Assembly: GCF_900141885.1 (NCBI RefSeq)
Contig: NZ_FQYY01000001.1
Span: 62,001 to 126,000 of the forward strand
From: Mesonia phycicola
GTDB lineage: Bacteria > Bacteroidota > Bacteroidia > Flavobacteriales > Flavobacteriaceae
Direction: 5' to 3'
DNA: 64,000 nucleotides
This document shows, in pieces, positions 1,111 through 32,575 of this stretch. The notes beneath the pieces were generated by a model. The model did not search any database. It was given only the letters and a program-made list of their open reading frames with translations, and was not told where the DNA came from. The stretch's first letter is position 1. Each line of letters opens with the position of its first letter. Made by a program: the position numbers and the translations under genes.

Positions 1111-1544
1111 AGGATATCTTAGGTGAAAGAAAATAATTAAATTTTTTCAAATGTTGCGAATTTAAGCAATTATTTATCATAATCAAAAAGTATTTTAAAA
1201 GCTAAGCCACAACACTTAATTACATACATATCAATAATTTAAATTTATAAATTCTTCTTTTTATTCTATTTCATCAAAAAAAATTTACATCCATTTATTG
1301 CTTAAATAATTAAAACTATAGTTTAAAATATCTACCATTACCTTATATCGAGAGGAAATCTAAAGTAATATGGCTAAGTACTTATATTTAGTATTTTTAT
1401 ATTTCTATTATTCATGTTACATACTTCTATTACCTATTAAAATGTTGTAATTGTCTATATTTTACTTTCTTTTGCAGCCTGTTAATTTTCTGATATTAAG
1501 AAAAAAGAATTCTACACAATAATCTCATAATTTATAAATAACAT
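1111..1544. other. Intergenic region, 434 bp, between acnB and the kinase gene
   Basis: This AT-rich divergent spacer separates acnB (minus) from the kinase gene at 1545 (plus). Its left part holds the acnB promoter. I found no open frame of note, no strong hairpin and no convincing -33/-7 pair for the plus-strand gene. Confidence 0.6.
1157..1186 (-). promoter_or_regulatory. Promoter of acnB (Bacteroidota type)
   Basis: On the minus strand TTG at 1186-1184 is followed after exactly 19 bp by TAAATTCG at 1164-1157, one base off the Bacteroidota -7 consensus TAnnTTTG. This predicts a leader of about 40 nt before the acnB ATG at 1110. Confidence 0.55.
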
Positions 1545-2522
1545 ATGAAGACCTTTTCTGCTATTACTTCTACTCTTTCTGAAAAAGAATTAGGTGATTT
1601 TGTGATTGAACAATACCAGCTTGATAAAAATTTTACTTGTTCTTTGTTTAGAACCGGCATGAATCACACTTACCTTATTACCTATCAAGATACTACATAC
1701 GTTTTAAGAGTGTATTGTTTTAATTGGAGAAGCAAGCAAGAAATTACGGAAGAGCTAGAACTTTTAACTCTATTACAGAAAAATAACTTGAGTATATCTT
1801 ATCCTCTTCCAGATAAAGACAACCAAGTAATACAAGAAATTAAGGCACCAGAAGGTGTTAGATATGCAGTACTTTTTTCGTTTGCTAAAGGAGAAAAAAT
1901 AAGATTTTTAAAAGAAGATACTTGTTTTGCTATTGGTTCTTTAATGTCTAAAATACATAACACTACTTTAAACAAATCTATTAACAGAATAACTTACAAC
2001 CAACAAACTCTTATTAAATTACCTTTAGATAGAGTAAAAAATTACTTTTCTGAAGAATTACCTGAAATGAAATTTATATCTAATTTTCAAAAAACGTTTC
2101 AAGATTCAGAGTTTAAAGAAACACCAAAAGGAATAGTTCATTTAGATATTTGGTACGATAATATGGCTATTACAGAAGAAAAAGAGATTACTATTTTTGA
2201 TTTCGATTTTTGTGGTAACGGTTCTTTAGTTTTAGATGTGGCATATTTTTGTAAACAGTTGTTTTTTATTGAAGCAGATAAAGCGCAATATGAGTTAAAA
2301 TACCAAAGTTTTTTAGAAGGTTATCAAAAAAACAGAATTTTATCTTCAGAAGAAATTAAATTAATACCAAAAGCAGGCGCTGCTATTTTTATCTTTTATT
2401 TAGGCATTCAAGCACAAAGGTTTGATTGGTCTAATATTTTTCTTACCAAAAATTACCTAACTATGTACATTGGCAGAATACAGTCTTGGCTTAAATATCA
2501 CCAAACACAAGAACCTAACTGA
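1545..2522 (+). CDS. APH-fold phosphotransferase (aminoglycoside/homoserine/choline kinase-like)
   Basis: This 325-residue cytoplasmic protein has the kinase-like fold of the APH family. A glycine-poor N-lobe contains TYVLRVY (residues 51-57), the catalytic loop is H199-L-D201-x4-N206, and the metal-binding DFD lies at 219-221. Such enzymes phosphorylate small hydroxylated molecules (homoserine, choline, sugars, aminoglycosides), and the substrate cannot be told from the sequence. It lies 155 bp upstream of the carotenoid regulator, on the same strand and with no clear terminator between them, so a link to that operon is possible but unproven. Nothing in it points specifically to antibiotic resistance. 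Confidence 0.75.
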   Translation: MKTFSAITSTLSEKELGDFVIEQYQLDKNFTCSLFRTGMNHTYLITYQDTTYVLRVYCFNWRSKQEITEELELLTLLQKNNLSISYPLPDKDNQVIQEIKAPEGVRYAVLFSFAKGEKIRFLKEDTCFAIGSLMSKIHNTTLNKSINRITYNQQTLIKLPLDRVKNYFSEELPEMKFISNFQKTFQDSEFKETPKGIVHLDIWYDNMAITEEKEITIFDFDFCGNGSLVLDVAYFCKQLFFIEADKAQYELKYQSFLEGYQKNRILSSEEIKLIPKAGAAIFIFYLGIQAQRFDWSNIFLTKNYLTMYIGRIQSWLKYHQTQEPN

Positions 2523-2600
2523 TTAACAATTAAATAAATAACCTATTCTTTCTAATTTAATTTTTATACTGAATTAGATCATTTTCAGCTAAAAAAACAA

Positions 2601-2673
2601 AACTGTTTAACTTTTTAACTTATTTTTTAAACAAAATTGATTTTTATAGATTAAGTTTGGCTATCTAATAAAA
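2601..2673 (+). promoter_or_regulatory. Candidate promoter and operator region of the merR-crt operon
   Basis: TAAGTTTG near 2653-2660 matches the -7 element TAnnTTTG about 18 bp before the ATG at 2678. Upstream lie two TTTAAC units at 2606-2611 and 2614-2619, and a TTTAAAC at 2626-2632. These could be subsites for the MerR-type regulator encoded just downstream. No TTG stands at the ideal 19 bp spacing, so the -33 element is uncertain. Confidence 0.4.
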
Positions 2674-2677
2674 TAAA

Positions 2678-3568
2678 ATGGCCTACATAAAAAAACAATT
2701 CAGCATTAAAGATTTAGAAATGCTTAGCGGTATTAAAGCTCATACGCTAAGAATGTGGGAAAAACGTTATGATGTTTTAAAACCCAACAGAACAGAAACT
2801 AACATCAGAACTTATGAGCTAGATGACTTACAGAGATTATTAAACATTTCTTTTTTAAATGAAAATGGTTACAAAATTTCTAGAATTTCAAAATTAGATA
2901 CTTTAGAAATTAATGAGCTTGTAAAAAATATTTCTTCTACCAATAAAAATGAAGATAGAGCTATAAAGTCTCTTACTCTATCTATGTATAACTTTGATCA
3001 AAGGTTATTTTTTGAAACTTATAATAGTTTATTAAAGACAAAAACTTTTAGAGAAATTTTTCAAGAGGTATTTATTCCATTTTTAAACAAAATAGGTTTA
3101 CTATGGCAAACAAATTCTATAGATCCTATTCATGAGCATTTTATCTCTAACTTAATTAAGCAAAAATTACTTCTTAATATAGAACAACTTCAGCAGCAAA
3201 ACCCTAGTAACACCTCTAAAAACTTTGTGTTATTTCTACCTGAAGATGAAATACACGATCTAGGGATATTATACATACACTTTGAAATTTTACTACACGG
3301 TTATCAAGCAATTTACTTAGGCCATAGTTTACCATTAGAAAATTTAAATTTTGTAAAAAACATTTATAACAACATCCATTTTGTAAGTTATTTTACGGTT
3401 AAACCAGATGATGTAGACGATTATTTAAGCAAATTTCAATCACATATATTAGACGAAATTGACTGTAATTACTGGGTTTTAGGTAAAAAATTAACTACTG
3501 CTACTCATAAACCATCAGATAAAATCACCTTTTTCAATTCTATTGAAGAGTTAACAAGAAAATTATAA
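2678..3568 (+). CDS. MerR-family, B12-binding (CarH/CarA-like) transcriptional regulator of carotenoid genes
   Basis: Residues 6-75 form a MerR winged helix (FSIKDLEMLSGIKAHTLRMW). Residues 95-170 match the helical cobalamin-cap domain, and 182-296 a Rossmann-type B12-binding domain. It carries the cobalamin lower-ligand motif E191-x-H193-xx-G196 and also W143-x9-E153-H154. In CarH-type photoreceptors the Trp and the Glu-His pair of the latter motif surround the adenosyl group of coenzyme B12. It is the first gene before crtI, with one base between stop and start, so it is probably an autoregulated repressor of carotenoid synthesis. Light and/or B12 sensing is inferred from the motifs and not demonstrated. 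The family and the context fit well. Confidence 0.88.
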   Translation: MAYIKKQFSIKDLEMLSGIKAHTLRMWEKRYDVLKPNRTETNIRTYELDDLQRLLNISFLNENGYKISRISKLDTLEINELVKNISSTNKNEDRAIKSLTLSMYNFDQRLFFETYNSLLKTKTFREIFQEVFIPFLNKIGLLWQTNSIDPIHEHFISNLIKQKLLLNIEQLQQQNPSNTSKNFVLFLPEDEIHDLGILYIHFEILLHGYQAIYLGHSLPLENLNFVKNIYNNIHFVSYFTVKPDDVDDYLSKFQSHILDEIDCNYWVLGKKLTTATHKPSDKITFFNSIEELTRKL

Positions 3569-3569
3569 T

Positions 3570-5030
3570 ATGAAAAAAATAATACTTATTGGTTCAGGGT
3601 TTTCTTCACTAGCTGCTTCTTGCTACTTAGCAAAAATGGGATATGAGGTTGAAATATTTGAAAAAAATAATACGGTTGGTGGTAGAGCTAGGCAATACAT
3701 AAAAGACGGTTTTACTTTTGATATAGGCCCAACCTGGTATTGGATGCCAGATGTTTTTGAACGTTTTTTTAACGACTTTCAATTAAAACCAGAAAACTTT
3801 TACGAGCTTATAAAATTAGACCCTGCTTATCAAGTATATTTTGATGTTAACGACTCTATTACTATTGGAGATACGTTAGAAAAAATATATGCCTCTTTTG
3901 AAGAAGTTGAAAGTGGTAGCTCTAAAAAACTTAGAAAATTTATAGAAAAGGCTAGAAACAATTATGATATTGCTATAAAAGATTTAGTATACAGACCCGG
4001 AGTTTCTCCTCTAGAATTAATTACTCCTCAAACAGCTACCAAATTAAATCAATTTTTTAGCACAATTGCTAAAGATGTAAGAAAAGAATTTAAAAACCCT
4101 AAGCTTATACAAGTACTCGAGTTTCCTGTATTATTTTTAGGTGCTAAACCAAGTGATACTCCTGCATTTTATAGTTTTATGAATTTTGCAGATTTTGGCT
4201 TAGGCACTTGGCACCCAAAAGGTGGTATGTATCAGGTAATTTTAGCAATTAATAAATTAGCAAAAGACTTAGGCGTAAAAATTAATGTAAATGAAAACGT
4301 AGAAAAAATTACTGTTGCCAATCAAAAAGCTACAGGTATAATTTCTAACGGAAAAAAACACGAAGCAGATATTGTTTTAAGCGGTGCAGACTATCACCAT
4401 ACAGAGACATTATTAGATCAAAAATATAGACAATATTCAGAAGCGTATTGGAGTAAAAAGACTTTTGCTCCCTCTTCCCTACTATTTTACGTTGGTTTTG
4501 ATAAAAAAATAAAAAATGTAGAACACCATACACTTTTTTTTGATGTAGACTTTAAAAAGCATGCGCAAGCAATTTACGATGATAATGAATGGCCAGAAAA
4601 CCCATTATTTTACGCTAGTTTCCCTTCTAAAACAGATAAAGAAGTAGCTCCAGAAGACAAAGAAGCAGGTATTTTTTTAATACCAATTGCTCCAGGTTTA
4701 AAAGACACAGAAGCTTTAAGAGAAAGTTATTTTCATAAAATAGTAGACCGTTTTGAAAAAATAACTCAGCAAAAGATAAAAAATAATATTATCTTCAAAA
4801 AAAGCTATTGCGTAAATGATTTTATAGAAGATTACAACTCTTATAAAGGGAATGCTTACGGTATGGCAAACATACTTTTACAAACCGCCTTTTTAAGACC
4901 AAAATTAAAAAGCAAAAAAGTAAAAGGAATGTACTTTACCGGTCAATTAACCGTACCAGGACCAGGAGTTCCGCCTTCCTTAATTTCGGGGAAATTAGTG
5001 GCAGATTTAATTAAAAAACACGAAGATTAA
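3570..5030 (+). CDS. crtI: Phytoene desaturase
   Basis: This is a 486-residue FAD-dependent desaturase that converts 15-cis-phytoene to lycopene at the membrane. The N-terminal dinucleotide-binding motif is IGSGFSSLAASCYL (residues 7-20), followed by VGGRAR. The C-terminal end has the CrtI signature region TGQLTVPGPGVPPSLISGK, which closes the FAD site. Length is normal for CrtI (about 490). The ATG follows the regulator's stop codon by one base, and crtB starts 4 bp downstream, so it is the second gene of a tight operon. The related diapophytoene desaturases (CrtN) are less likely because crtB, crtZ and crtY follow. Confidence 0.95.
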   Translation: MKKIILIGSGFSSLAASCYLAKMGYEVEIFEKNNTVGGRARQYIKDGFTFDIGPTWYWMPDVFERFFNDFQLKPENFYELIKLDPAYQVYFDVNDSITIGDTLEKIYASFEEVESGSSKKLRKFIEKARNNYDIAIKDLVYRPGVSPLELITPQTATKLNQFFSTIAKDVRKEFKNPKLIQVLEFPVLFLGAKPSDTPAFYSFMNFADFGLGTWHPKGGMYQVILAINKLAKDLGVKINVNENVEKITVANQKATGIISNGKKHEADIVLSGADYHHTETLLDQKYRQYSEAYWSKKTFAPSSLLFYVGFDKKIKNVEHHTLFFDVDFKKHAQAIYDDNEWPENPLFYASFPSKTDKEVAPEDKEAGIFLIPIAPGLKDTEALRESYFHKIVDRFEKITQQKIKNNIIFKKSYCVNDFIEDYNSYKGNAYGMANILLQTAFLRPKLKSKKVKGMYFTGQLTVPGPGVPPSLISGKLVADLIKKHED

Positions 5031-27541: not shown

Positions 27542-28930
27542 TTATAAATTAAGACGCAACTCTTCAAATAACTGAGTAGCGGCTTTAAAAAATTCATTCT
27601 TAATTTTGTTTTGTTTTAATTGTGCACTTATTAATTTATTTTCTCTAGAGTTTATTAAAAAAATAGAACTCTCGCCTACTTCAAACAAACGTTTTTCAGA
27701 ATTTACCATTACCTCACTATCATCTACAATAGTTTGCACAATTTCTATTTGCTCTTGCAAACTCACAATTTCTGCTTCTATAGATTTTACTTTATTGGTT
27801 AATTTCCATTCTTGTTGGCTCAGTTTATATTCTGTATTTTCTCTTTTTACTTTTGCCAAACGTAGTTCTCCTCTTTCTTTTCTTAAAAATAAAGGAAACT
27901 TTACTTTAACCCCAGCTTTGTAGTTACTCGTGTTTAAATAGTTTAATTGATCTACTTCTGATGTAAGAAAATTATATTGTACATCTATAGTAGGTAAAAG
28001 ATTATTTTTACTAAGTTTTATATCTAAATCATAAGACTCTAAATCATACTCTAAAGATTTTAACTCTGGATGATCTTCTAGATTTTCTGCATTACCCAAA
28101 TAGTTTTCTATCCCTAAACTATTTAAAATACTTTCTTTAGTAATAAAAGGTGTTAAATTATCTTCTAATTCTACGGGTACATCATCTATCCATAAATAAT
28201 TAGAAAGTTTTAATTTTGCCTTTTGCAATTTTAATGATGCTTGTGATAGATCTAACTCACGAGTTTTTACTGTTATTTTAGTTTCTACGGTATCTATTGC
28301 AGGAGTTTCTCCTAATTCACTAGATCTAGAAATACCTTGATAACGCACTTTAGCATTCTCTAAAAACTCAGTGTACACTTCTTTATTATCAAAATAATAT
28401 TTCCAATCTGCGTATGCTTTGGCTGCTTCAGCAAGAATACTATTTATTAAAATATCTCTTTCTAATTCATTTTTATTCTGAAGTATTTTAGCTTGTCGTA
28501 AAGCATTCATTCTATCATTATAAAGTAATCCCTTGGCAAGTTTTATACTTACCCCTGCACTCCACAAACCATCTTCTGGTGTTGTGTTTTGAGGGTTTAG
28601 GTAATACCCATCATTTTGCTGATAGTCTGCCTTTACATCTATACCGTACCAAGTTGGTATGGTAAAACTACCATCCCAAAGAGAATAATATTCTGTACCA
28701 TTAAAGTTTTTTTCTTTTACACCTCCTTCTAATTTAGGATCAAAAGAACCTCTTGCTTTTAGTAACTTTGCTTCTGCTTCAGAGAGTTTTAAATTTGCTT
28801 GAGCTACAACAGGATGGTACTTTTTTACCATTGCCAAAAACTCTTCTAATGAGAAATTTTTATTCATTTCTTGAGATTGTACTGTAACATTAACCCCAAG
28901 TAATAATAGTATTATTATTAACTTTCTCAT
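27542..28930 (-). CDS. TolC-family outer-membrane efflux protein
   Basis: The start is the ATG at 28930 (MRKLIIILLLLGVNVTVQSQ), which begins one base after the preceding stop and opens with a signal peptide; 462 residues follow. An earlier in-frame start would lie inside hlyD and hide the signal. Two OEP repeats with long helices are visible (FSLEEFLAMVKKYHPVVAQANLKLSEAEAKL near the start, and a second near residues 285-440). It forms the outer-membrane duct of a tripartite exporter with the ABC and HlyD proteins encoded upstream. Confidence 0.9.
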   Translation of the reverse strand: MRKLIIILLLLGVNVTVQSQEMNKNFSLEEFLAMVKKYHPVVAQANLKLSEAEAKLLKARGSFDPKLEGGVKEKNFNGTEYYSLWDGSFTIPTWYGIDVKADYQQNDGYYLNPQNTTPEDGLWSAGVSIKLAKGLLYNDRMNALRQAKILQNKNELERDILINSILAEAAKAYADWKYYFDNKEVYTEFLENAKVRYQGISRSSELGETPAIDTVETKITVKTRELDLSQASLKLQKAKLKLSNYLWIDDVPVELEDNLTPFITKESILNSLGIENYLGNAENLEDHPELKSLEYDLESYDLDIKLSKNNLLPTIDVQYNFLTSEVDQLNYLNTSNYKAGVKVKFPLFLRKERGELRLAKVKRENTEYKLSQQEWKLTNKVKSIEAEIVSLQEQIEIVQTIVDDSEVMVNSEKRLFEVGESSIFLINSRENKLISAQLKQNKIKNEFFKAATQLFEELRLNL

Positions 28931-28931
28931 A

Positions 28932-30293
28932 TTAGGATTTTGTTTTTCCTTTAGCTTCCTTTTGTTGGGTTTTATCGTAATAATTTGGAGGAAAACCATT
29001 TAACTTTCTCCAAATTTCAAACCAAATTGGCACATCTTCTAACAAAGCTAAAGTTCTTGCTCCAGAACCAACACGTAAGGCATCTGGCCATTGATGCTCT
29101 GCATTAGGTTCTGGTTTTAGTAAAATTCTATACTTACCATTATCACTTATAAAACTTTCTATAGCTACTACTTGTGCGCCGTAAGTACCGTAAGAGGCAT
29201 TAGGCCAACCACTAAAAACAATTGCAGGCCAACCATCAAATTGTACACGAACGTGGTCTCCTATACCTATTAATGGTAAATCTATTGGTTCTACGTAAGT
29301 TTCTACAGCTATTTCTATATTAGAAGGCATAATATTTACTAATTTTTCTCCTTCTTTAAAGGTTTCTCCTAAACCAGAAATAATGGCTTTGTTTATATAC
29401 CCACTTTGTGGTGCTCTTACAAAATATAAGCCTTTTCTTATTTCATAATTACTTAAAGAGTTTTCTAGCTTACTTACTTGTGCTTCTGCATCAAACTTAG
29501 AGGAAACGGTAGATGAAATATCACTCTCTATTTTACTTATTTTATTAGCATACTCAGCCTCAATACGGTTAATCTCCATTTGTGCATTAAGCAGTTCATT
29601 TTTACTAGTTAGTAGCTTGCTTTCTAGATCTATTACTTTTGCTTGACTTTCTTGTAGTTTAGATTGTTTAATTTCAAAATCTAGTCTAGACTTTAAACCT
29701 TCTTCTAATAAAGATTGTGTACGAGTATATTGTTTTTTTGCAATAGATAAATTTACCTCTGCTGCAGTTAAAGAAATACTATCACTAACTATTTTTAATT
29801 TGGCTTGCTTGAGTTTATTTTTGGTTTGTTCCATTTTTAAAACTCGCTCTTTTCTTGCAGAACCTAACTGGTTTTTTAAAGCATCTGTTTTTTGCTCATA
29901 AGCTTTTACTGAGTTAGATTTAGATGAAATTTGATCTCCTGTTCTCTCTATAAGTTGCGGATCAAAATAATCGTTTTTAATTTCTGAAATTTGTAAGATT
30001 GTATCTCCTTTTTCTACAAAATCTCCTTCTTTTACATACCATTTTTCAATTTTACCAGGAATAGGTGACTGTATAGTTTGTGGTCTTTGGTCTGGCCTTA
30101 AGGTAGTAACATACCCATTGCTATTAATAGTTTGCGTCCACGGAAAAAATAATAGTATTAATAAAAAAATACTGGTACCTAATATAATTCTAGAAAGTAA
30201 GTGATGTATATTTTTATTTACTATCATTGAGTATGCGTTAAACTTAGAAAAACGCGTATCTCTTTCAAGTTCATTATTTGTTAAATTTAGCAT
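28932..30293 (-). CDS. HlyD-family membrane fusion protein
   Basis: This 453-residue adaptor has a short cytoplasmic tail, one transmembrane helix (about 33-51), a biotinyl/lipoyl-like half-motif (IQSPIPGKIEKWYVKEGDFV, residues 75-94), a long coiled-coil hairpin (about 115-285), then the second half-motif (VRAPQSGYINKAIISGLGET) and a beta-barrel domain. It would link the inner-membrane ABC partner to the TolC protein. Layout and size match HlyD of type I secretion systems. It begins 9 bp after the ABC gene. Confidence 0.92.
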   Translation of the reverse strand: MLNLTNNELERDTRFSKFNAYSMIVNKNIHHLLSRIILGTSIFLLILLFFPWTQTINSNGYVTTLRPDQRPQTIQSPIPGKIEKWYVKEGDFVEKGDTILQISEIKNDYFDPQLIERTGDQISSKSNSVKAYEQKTDALKNQLGSARKERVLKMEQTKNKLKQAKLKIVSDSISLTAAEVNLSIAKKQYTRTQSLLEEGLKSRLDFEIKQSKLQESQAKVIDLESKLLTSKNELLNAQMEINRIEAEYANKISKIESDISSTVSSKFDAEAQVSKLENSLSNYEIRKGLYFVRAPQSGYINKAIISGLGETFKEGEKLVNIMPSNIEIAVETYVEPIDLPLIGIGDHVRVQFDGWPAIVFSGWPNASYGTYGAQVVAIESFISDNGKYRILLKPEPNAEHQWPDALRVGSGARTLALLEDVPIWFEIWRKLNGFPPNYYDKTQQKEAKGKTKS

Positions 30294-30302
30294 TTTGTAA
30301 GT

Positions 30303-31895
30303 TTAGTTTAAATTAACGGCTTTCATTCTACTACTAGCTGGTTCTTTACTAGCTAAAAGCATAGTTATTTCTTGTTCTCTAGCATACTCCATTAATACCT
30401 GAATATCTTCATCTGAAAAAATAAACTCTTCTTCAATTAATAAAAGTTCTGGTTTTTTTAACAACACTCTAATTAAACAAATTTTTTGTGTTAGCGTATG
30501 GCTTAACATTCTAGTGCCTGGATATACGTAGGTATTTACCGTATCTGGCAAATTTTTAATTTCTTCTAATACTTGAAAATTCTCTAGTAAATCATACACA
30601 GATTTTTCGTCTATTTCTGCATTATTTAAAGTTATGTTTTGCCAAATAGTACCATCAAAAAGATAATTACTATTAAGCACCAAGCCTATTTTACTTCTAT
30701 ATAAATCTAGATTTACGCTAGAGATTTCTTTTCTATCTAAATAAATTTTTCCATTGGTAGTTTTTTTCATTCCTCCTAAAAAATGAAAGAGGTCATAAAT
30801 TTGTAAATGACTACCTACTATATTTAAAAGTTCTCCTTTATCTATGTGTAGATCGTTAATTTTAGAATAGTTAATCTCTAATTTCTCTGTATTTATTGGA
30901 AAAATTGATAAGTCTTTAGAATTACCTTCTGCTTTTCTGTCTATTTTTTTAGAGCTTACTTCATCTATTTTTTCTACTGCTGTAACTACATCATAAAGAG
31001 TTTCTAAACTAAAACCTATTTTATCTATAGAGTTAATAATTAGTAGAATTATAATTTCTGAAGCAACAAATTGCCCTATATTCATTTGCTGATTTAAAAC
31101 TAACAAACCACCAATAAGTAGTAACCCTAGAGTAATAATCAACTTAAAACCAACCATTTGCTTAAACTGATTTTTCACAATTTTAAAGTGTGCTTGTCTA
31201 TACGTTAGGTATTGCTCTACTAATTCATTATTTTTCTCTTGCTCATACTCATTAGAAGTATTTTTAAAAGTTTTATAATTAGAAGCTACTTGCTGTATCC
31301 AGAAGGCAATTTTATATTTTGCTTTAGACTCTTTAATACTAGTATCTACCGCCTTTTTTAAACTTAGTTTAAAAAAGATATACAGTAAAACAACTAACAA
31401 CATCCCTAATGCTATAAAAAACGGATGGTAAAATGAAAGTAGTAACAACCCGAAGATTATTTGAATTACTGCTGCAGGAAAATCTAATAATAATTTCTCC
31501 ATTCCCTTTTGAAGTGTTAACACATCAAAAAATCTATTAGAAAGTTCTGGTGGGTATCTGCCTTCTAACTCACTCACTCTCATTTTAGGGAATTTGTATA
31601 TAAAATCAAAAGATGCTCTAGCAAAAATCTTCTCTTCTATATTTTCTACAATATCTAATTGCAGTACTTGCAATACTCCTACAAAACCTACACCAAGTGT
31701 TACTAATACGGTTAGTAAAATCCAAGAACTAGAAACTTGAGCTCCTTGTAGTAAGTTAATTATGGCTTGAATACCTAATGGTAAAGTTAGGCTTATAAGT
31801 CCGGCAAAAATGGCGTAATATAAAACTTGAAGTATATCTTTACGCTCCAGTTTTAAAAGGTTAAATAGCTTTGCCCAAGGTGATATAGAATTCAT
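30303..31895 (-). CDS. ABC transporter half-protein with degenerate ATPase domain (type I secretion-like)
   Basis: This 530-residue protein has an ABC type-1 membrane domain (about 20-305, five or six helices) and a C-terminal nucleotide-binding-domain fold (about 335-530). The ATPase motifs are lost. The Walker A position reads GSHLQIYD (361-368) with no GK[ST], the Q-loop reads VLNSNYLFDG without the Gln, the signature reads LSHTLTQ (464-470), Walker B ends IEEE (487-490) instead of DE, and the H-loop His is replaced in LLASKEP. There is no peptidase domain. It sits in an intact tetR-abc-hlyD-tolC operon with no frameshift, so this is not simple decay. It may need a second, active ABC partner, or may work without ATP hydrolysis. 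Confidence 0.85.
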   Translation of the reverse strand: MNSISPWAKLFNLLKLERKDILQVLYYAIFAGLISLTLPLGIQAIINLLQGAQVSSSWILLTVLVTLGVGFVGVLQVLQLDIVENIEEKIFARASFDFIYKFPKMRVSELEGRYPPELSNRFFDVLTLQKGMEKLLLDFPAAVIQIIFGLLLLSFYHPFFIALGMLLVVLLYIFFKLSLKKAVDTSIKESKAKYKIAFWIQQVASNYKTFKNTSNEYEQEKNNELVEQYLTYRQAHFKIVKNQFKQMVGFKLIITLGLLLIGGLLVLNQQMNIGQFVASEIIILLIINSIDKIGFSLETLYDVVTAVEKIDEVSSKKIDRKAEGNSKDLSIFPINTEKLEINYSKINDLHIDKGELLNIVGSHLQIYDLFHFLGGMKKTTNGKIYLDRKEISSVNLDLYRSKIGLVLNSNYLFDGTIWQNITLNNAEIDEKSVYDLLENFQVLEEIKNLPDTVNTYVYPGTRMLSHTLTQKICLIRVLLKKPELLLIEEEFIFSDEDIQVLMEYAREQEITMLLASKEPASSRMKAVNLN

Positions 31896-31897
31896 AT

Positions 31898-32575
31898 TTA
31901 TTTTAGGGAGTTGAAAATTAAGTTTTGAAAAAATTTGGTTATTGGTTCTTCGTCTGTCTCTTTAAAGTCTGATAAATGTTTAAAGTGTTGATGTAAAAAA
32001 TTTTGTTTTAAAGCTCCTTGTATTACTGTGTTAGATAGTGTTAACGGATAGCAGTAACTAGGGTTATAGTTTAATATAATTTTGCTAAGCCTCTCTACCA
32101 ATCTTCTATAGATTATAAAATAGCCATTTTCATTTTCTTCATCTACATCTTTGGTATGAAATGCTTTAGAGTATTCTTGCACAATTATATAATGAAGCTC
32201 TTCTTCATTTATAAAGCCAAAAGTTTCGTCTCTTCTTGGAGTTTCTGTAATAGCGATTATGGCTCTTTTTAAAACATCTTCTTTATCTTCTATATTATTG
32301 GTTCTAAAAACTAATTTATACTCTAACCAACCCCAATACCATGATATTAAATACAGCATTAGCATATGCTTGTTTTCAAAATAACGGTATACAGAACTCT
32401 CATTAGAGTTTATTTTTTTAGCTAATTTTTTAAAGGTGAATTTTTCTAAACCCTCTTGCCTTATTAATTGTATAGAGTATTCTAATATTCTTCTTCCCAA
32501 TTTTGAAGATTGAGGATCTTTAATGTAGATTTTCTCTGGTATGGTTAACGTTAAACTTGAAAGTATTGTGCTCAT
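31898..32575 (-). CDS. TetR/AcrR-family transcriptional regulator
   Basis: This 225-residue protein has the TetR DNA-binding domain at residues about 25-75 (LGRRILEYSIQLIRQEGLEKF, then FKKLAKKINSNESSVYRYFENKHMLMLYL) and a helical ligand domain that is not conserved. It is the first gene of the tetR-abc-hlyD-tolC operon, with a 2-bp gap to the ABC gene, so it likely controls its own operon. A palindrome sits directly next to the -7 element in the promoter (32602-32614). Confidence 0.92.
   Translation of the reverse strand: MSTILSSLTLTIPEKIYIKDPQSSKLGRRILEYSIQLIRQEGLEKFTFKKLAKKINSNESSVYRYFENKHMLMLYLISWYWGWLEYKLVFRTNNIEDKEDVLKRAIIAITETPRRDETFGFINEEELHYIIVQEYSKAFHTKDVDEENENGYFIIYRRLVERLSKIILNYNPSYCYPLTLSNTVIQGALKQNFLHQHFKHLSDFKETDEEPITKFFQNLIFNSLK

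Follow-up and report, generated by a model that had tools for sequence, protein, structure and literature searches.

A pseudo-ABC protein in a conserved export operon

The window, that is, the whole 64,000-nucleotide stretch of Mesonia phycicola DNA that was analysed, carries on its minus strand an operon of four genes encoding a TetR-family regulator, an ABC-exporter-like protein, a HlyD-type adaptor and a TolC-type channel. As the preliminary description of this DNA had it, the genes are separated by 2, 9 and 1 bp and the ABC gene is open over 530 codons; the frame begins with an ATG, and the 1-bp value takes TolC to start at MRKLI, 28930. The genes, together with the domains and motif sites of the ABC protein, are listed below.

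31898-32575, minus strand: TetR-family regulator, first gene of the operon (PF00440, E=1.2e-7)
30303-31895, minus strand: ABC-exporter-like protein, 530-codon frame
30942-31895, minus strand: transmembrane domain (TMD) of the ABC protein, aa 1-318, with PF00664 at aa 27-288 and six long helices; the portion retained in relatives without a nucleotide-binding domain (NBD)
31260-31280, minus strand: coupling helix 2 region, NYKTFKN (model helix 207-212), placed by the model and a variability scan; drifted in NBD-less relatives
30303-30941, minus strand: pseudo-NBD, aa 319-530 and the stop codon (PF00005, E=1.8e-7; motif alignments), with its ATPase motifs gone
30792-30815, minus strand: Walker A site, GSHLQIYD, aa 361-368, from motif alignment
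30486-30506, minus strand: signature site, LSHTLTQ, aa 464-470, from motif alignment
30426-30446, minus strand: Walker B site, LLLIEEE, aa 484-490, with Asp replaced by Glu and the Glu position retained
28932-30293, minus strand: HlyD-type periplasmic adaptor (PF13533 and PF13437 above cut-off; TIGR01843 at E=4.6e-25, below its cut-off)
27542-28930, minus strand: TolC-type outer-membrane channel (PF02321, E=9.7e-40), start taken at MRKLI within the longest frame from 28999

Alignment of the window protein with the three intact exporters encoded in its genome showed that the Walker A Lys/Ser, the signature Gly-Gly, the Walker B Asp, the Q-loop Gln (region NSNYLFDGT, aa 408-416) and the H-loop His (region LLASKEP, aa 513-519) are all gone. 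The Walker B Asp is a Glu here, and the catalytic-Glu position that follows is still Glu. The earlier claim that all ATPase motifs are lacking was therefore correct for Walker A, the signature, the Q-loop Gln and the H-loop His, and overstated for the Glu position after Walker B. Judged by its sequence, the window protein is not an ATPase. Chance or sequencing error is an unlikely cause of the motif loss, because all 10 carriers in the genus, the window's genome included, are without the motifs.

The predicted fold is nevertheless that of an ABC exporter. PF00664 matched at E=2.4e-11 (44.3 bits against a Pfam cut-off of 28) and PF00005 matched above its Pfam cut-off, while no SbmA/BacA model in Pfam matched the window protein. 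All NCBIfam cut-offs were missed (best 108.3 against 853.3 bits), including those of the curated type I secretion models TIGR03375 (90.6 against 693.1 bits) and TIGR01842 (83.5 against 510.15). An AlphaFold2 model built from the window protein and 49 relatives (mean pLDDT 82.5) presented six long helices (18-52, 57-104, 117-156, 159-205, 216-267 and 273-314), coupling helices at 107-110 and 207-212, and an NBD-like order of strands and helices. Its best Foldseek matches in the PDB were the type IV exporters PCAT1, TM287/288, ABCB10, TmrAB and HlyB, aligned over nearly the full chain.

The operon is conserved in Flavobacteriaceae. Among 80 named loci, the complete TetR-ABC-HlyD-TolC order was found in 70, with TetR immediately 5' of the ABC gene in 73 and no recognised TetR directly upstream of an ABC-HlyD-TolC set in the other seven. 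HlyD and TolC follow in 77, and the remaining three loci end at contig ends. In each of the 10 genus carriers the frame is open, with TetR and HlyD neighbours that overlap it or are no more than 10 bp away. No gene for a transport substrate was recognised.

Age of the motif loss and selection on the protein

A homologue was present in 30 of the 60 genomes searched, the window's own counted. Within the genus, 10 of 16 genomes carry the gene; all 10 copies lack the motifs, with Walker A missing in every one, and the nine others share 55-82% identity with the window protein. The copy in genome G006 is identical to the protein of Mesonia sp. HuA40, which makes Mesonia the probable genus. The Zunongwangia pacifica homologue (65% identical over the best segment) is without Walker A too. 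In the four pairs with usable dS (L008/L009, L008/L010, L009/L010 and L002/L005; dS was saturated in many others), omega was 0.037, 0.050, 0.056 and 0.111 for the pseudo-NBD and 0.016-0.023 for the TMD. The pseudo-NBD is thus under purifying selection, weaker than that on the TMD, which bears out the earlier proposal that the protein is kept by selection and is far from the near-neutral ratio that had been named as a sign against it.

The preliminary description had also looked to homologues with intact motifs as a possible mark of a recently decayed allele. Near-complete motifs do occur in a deep group of the family (see below), but the nearer relatives share the loss, and a recent decayed allele is ruled out by the common loss throughout the genus together with the low omega. 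Because many of these nearer relatives are likewise without the signature, the Walker B Asp-Glu and the H-loop His, the motif loss is an old, common loss of function rather than recent decay.

Stages of motif loss in NBD-holding relatives

Across the phylum, 97 of 395 sampled genomes hold a family member (E 1e-60). The NBD-holding members were reduced to 236 distinct proteins, comprising 28 from eight deep families (the deep group) and 208 others. In the deep group, the Walker A Lys is present in all 28 proteins, the second signature Gly in 22, the Walker B DE in 26 and the H-loop His in 21, and 11 of the 28 have the full set of Lys, signature Ser and Gly, DE and His. Outside it, the Walker A Lys is still found in 193 of the 208, as opposed to two proteins with the second signature Gly, three with DE and two with the His. 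The Q-loop Gln is absent from all 28 deep-group proteins as well, and for this reason was not used to date the loss. Thirteen of the 208 have neither Lys nor Arg at the Walker A site, namely 11 members of the window's clade, L163, and L328, where the absence may be an alignment fault. The window's clade has therefore lost Walker A on top of the catalytic motifs.

In a tree of 85 TMDs, a branch of length 1.01 (support 100/100) separated 15 deep rows from the remaining 70, which fits a single loss of the catalytic motifs shared by every class-level member. When plasmid relatives and distant exporters were added, the basal order was not settled and the 70 rows no longer formed one group.

The plasmid relatives are ABC-HlyD-TolC operons of the same family borne by plasmids of Sphingomonadales (Alphaproteobacteria), with ABC genes at the following positions.

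L348, 4929-6647: family ABC gene, Sphingomonadales plasmid
L349, 3953-5659: family ABC gene, Sphingomonadales plasmid
L350, 4001-5683: family ABC gene, Sphingomonadales plasmid
L351, 4001-5680: family ABC gene, Sphingomonadales plasmid

Two of the four copies (L348 and L349) were checked for motifs and are without the Walker A Lys, the Walker B DE and the H-loop His. All four branch close to the poorly settled base of the family, so the ATPase may have been lost separately in this plasmid lineage. In L349, on Sphingobium plasmid pHAL16, a DUF2309 gene (1357-3909) stands immediately 5' of the motif-less operon. Another record, L347 (NZ_CP081938.1), bears the label of a Riemerella anatipestifer plasmid. 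Its family operon has housekeeping genes next to it, among them murB, rsmI and a MurF-alanine racemase fusion, and the record may be a chromosomal piece under a wrong label.

An N-terminal extension of ~100-260 aa precedes the TMD in many deep members and in some at class level (L153, L155-L159, L162, L187, L191 and L193-L195). No Pfam family scored above cut-off in the extensions of the four proteins examined (L153, L156, L157 and L162).

Relatives without a nucleotide-binding domain

In three other families of the class, the searches matched 66 of 151 genomes, 101 of 120 and 139 of 150, respectively; about 24, 25 and 52 of these matches, as estimated from listed frame lengths, are NBD-less. 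Such relatives lay beyond the reach of the preliminary description, and they alter the meaning of the finding. Ninety-four loci were classed as NBD-less; after exclusion of L314 and of L333, a 271-aa fragment, the remaining 92 represent 86 distinct TMD-only proteins of 329-385 aa from 84 genomes. HlyD lies directly downstream in 92 of 92, with many gene overlaps. For TetR the figure is 27 of 92, counting genes recognised no more than 600 bp upstream; the flanks of these 92 loci often extend over only 1.5 kb. Four of the proteins were run against Pfam, and PF00664 was the sole match above cut-off, with neither an NBD nor an SbmA model.

In the 85-TMD tree the NBD-less proteins form one clade (support 100/99) nested among NBD-holders; the script's NBD-less label there also took in L314, which stands apart. 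The clade persists (100/99) with plasmid relatives and distant exporters added. Several independent NBD losses had been suspected from genus codes that include both kinds, but the trees give a single clade. L314 (3532-5025, genome G784) was rejected as a second NBD loss since a frameshifted NBD was found downstream; it is an NBD-holding member split by a frameshift just past the TMD, either a recent break or an assembly error.

Both forms can occur in one genome, as in G770 (two NBD-less and one NBD-holding member; L315, L316 and L317) and G738 (one of each; L318 and L319), and therefore the two are not simple replacements of each other. The family NBD was not found elsewhere in any of the 20 NBD-less genomes examined (of 84) at E 1e-18, whereas it was recovered in all five NBD-holding control genomes at 45-100% identity; relocation of the NBD was rejected on these grounds. 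The search bears on the family NBD and leaves room for an ATPase of another family acting in trans. The matches in the 20 genomes were about 20-30% identical and nearly all lay in frames of 588-844 aa, with two weak matches in short frames (266 aa in G749 and 292 aa in G504).

Coupling helices, acidic positions and the proposed energy source

To compare the two forms, variability was scanned in all 13-residue windows of the TMD using 60 thinned NBD-holding and 31 NBD-less rows. The six largest rises from NBD-holding to NBD-less all fell at 202-222, over coupling helix 2. R205 is present in 188 of 198 NBD-holding, 24 of 27 deep and 17 of 86 NBD-less proteins, and F210 in 195 of 198, 19 of 27 and 14 of 86, respectively, with Tyr in its place in 51 of the 86; K211 has become Arg in 83 of 86. 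None of the 11 members of the window's clade has R205 and 8 of them keep F210; the window protein itself retains F210/K211 without R205. Coupling helix 1, which is variable in every group, showed no rise in the NBD-less proteins, and a cytoplasmic stretch of TM3 with NRFF and QK is almost invariant there. In the NBD-less proteins coupling helix 2 has drifted rather than vanished.

Six acidic TMD positions (84, 117, 124, 189, 280 and 302) are 92-100% kept in the NBD-less proteins, including Glu 280 near the start of the sixth long model helix (86 of 86). In the ATPase-like deep group, conservation is 70-100% at five of the six as well, so these residues are candidates for ion coupling and not proof of it. 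The exception is E84, conserved at 22% in the deep group and mostly Asp there; apart from this position, no gain of acidic residues, and no gain of a glutamate ladder, was seen alongside the loss of the ATPase.

Judged by the sequences alone, then, the catalytic motifs have been lost while the TMD, HlyD and TolC are retained, and another lineage has dropped the whole NBD with its export operon intact. We tentatively propose, at close to an even chance, an ATP-independent tripartite exporter that parallels SbmA and is most likely driven by an ion gradient, the energy source being what we infer. The gene product would be the inner-membrane translocator of a TetR-linked pseudo-ABC, HlyD and TolC exporter and would split no ATP of its own. 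The TMD dimer alone would still move or hold the substrate and pass it to HlyD-TolC, and by analogy with SbmA the work would most likely be paid for by an ion gradient acting through the conserved acidic TMD residues. The pseudo-NBD that the window's species retains would be a remnant still packed on the TMD, with a structural or regulatory function. A non-ATPase role was the better of the two ideas offered earlier, given the motif loss and the NBD-less relatives.

The main rival to an ion-gradient-driven exporter is a passive role, in which the pseudo-ABC dimer would serve as a gated pore or as a membrane anchor that positions HlyD-TolC, with the substrate moving down its own gradient and no energy coupling. 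Such a role is consistent with the retention of the TMD core and the HlyD pairing without a motor, and no gained charged residues mark an ion path. The HlyB/HlyD complex, moreover, is reported to hold three ABC transporters (Zhao et al. 2022, cited in PMC11026475), from which it may follow that not every subunit need be an engine. The constraint on the TMD core, seen most clearly at the invariant Glu 280, nonetheless seems stronger than an anchor would need, and we consider the passive role unlikely, if the most credible of the alternatives.

Search for a partner ABC subunit

The preliminary description had proposed an exporter working with a second ABC subunit encoded elsewhere and called for a search for a conserved partner gene. 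A single intact exporter served as query with a threshold of 60 bits, and no second exporter-type ORF was detected in flanks of up to 6 kb (several cut short by contig ends) at any of the 80 named loci. Each of the 16 genus genomes has three full-length PF00664 exporters of similar size whether or not the operon is present, orthology of this core having been judged by size and score rather than by tree. What the 10 operon carriers have in common beyond these is the operon gene alone; two of them also encode an additional large exporter (716 aa in one, 733 aa in the other). A fourth match, weak and partial in one case, turned up in two of the six non-carriers. No ABC partner therefore co-occurs with the operon in this census, and neither the proposed subunit nor a partner gene was found.

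A heteromeric exporter would require the window protein to pair with an intact exporter of its genome for ATP hydrolysis, or a separate ATPase to dock in trans in the NBD-less relatives. Heterodimeric exporters with a degenerate partner include TM287/288 and TmrAB, both among the best fold matches, and the window's genome has three exporters of intact length. The two short ABC frames of G749 and G504 could supply such an ATPase, and docking is compatible with the lack of a rise in variability at coupling helix 1 and with the F210-to-Tyr and K211-to-Arg replacements. Because coupling helix 2 is changed rather than lost, the trans-ATPase alternative carries somewhat more weight and the ATP-independent reading somewhat less. 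Against it stand the empty flanks, the lack of an exporter common to the 10 carriers, the loss of R205 from the window's clade and most NBD-less proteins, and the failure to find the family NBD elsewhere in the 20 genomes. A second ABC subunit is disfavoured by these observations, and we regard heteromeric action as quite improbable.

Less probable again is an ATP-binding switch, in which the Walker A retained by most relatives would bind nucleotide and gate the TMD without hydrolysis, the ability having been lost in the window's clade. The persistence of the Walker A Lys in 193 of 208 proteins against an almost complete loss of the catalytic motifs suggests that these relatives still bind nucleotide, but a switch is inapplicable both to the window protein, whose Walker A is gone, and to the NBD-less members. 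Finally, a pseudogene in decay, which the lost motifs and the faster change of the NBD than of the TMD might suggest, is refuted by the low omega in both domains, by the open frame with closely packed neighbours in all genus carriers and by the spread of family members across the phylum.

Comparison with known systems and implications

In the abstract of a large review, the energised components named are ABC, RND and MFS transporters. No description of the present exporter family came up in the open-access papers searched. Compared with a type IV ABC exporter, the window protein has the ABC_membrane TMD and is without intact Walker A, signature, Walker B and H-loop. Type I secretion and peptidase-type exporters (HlyB, PrtD, LssB, PCAT1 and NHLM) share with it the TMD and NBD fold, PCAT1 and HlyB being among the best Foldseek matches, as well as HlyD and TolC partners in one operon; the window's family differs in its lost NBD motifs, its scores far below the NCBIfam cut-offs and its TetR linkage. 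Heterodimeric exporters with a degenerate site (TM287/288, TmrAB and BmrCD) likewise include a chain whose catalytic motifs are poor, and they resemble the window protein closely in fold, but that chain works with an active partner chain, of which none was found here in the 80 loci or the genus census, and in a homodimer of the window protein both sites would be dead.

The one parallel found for ABC-exporter-type translocators that gave up ATP is SbmA/BacA. PMC13316013 describes SbmA as driven by protons, its ABC-type TMD having lost the NBD and the coupling helices; SbmA/BacA (SLiPT) proteins use no ATP and are held there to descend from a full-length ABC transporter. An ABC-exporter-type TMD without an NBD is also what the 86 distinct NBD-less relatives have, while the window protein keeps a pseudo-NBD. 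The differences are that SbmA imports peptides and uses a glutamate ladder, whereas the present family sits in a HlyD-TolC operon, matches PF00664 and no SbmA model, keeps an altered coupling helix 2 and still displays intermediate stages of the loss.

It is plausible, though somewhat less so than ATP-independent export as such and short of an even chance, that the family represents a second case, independent of SbmA, in which an ABC exporter became a transporter not run on ATP, here as the inner-membrane part of a HlyD-TolC export machine that spans the envelope, and with the stages of the change still living: near-intact motifs, Walker A only, no motifs and no NBD. The conversion of SbmA from a primary to a secondary pump has been inferred from its end product and full-length relatives; if the proposal holds, this family would offer the intermediates of such a conversion side by side, and a tripartite exporter built on an ABC chassis without an ATPase. 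The motif losses described here also suggest that many Bacteroidota genes annotated as 'ABC transporter ATP-binding protein' do not encode ATPases.
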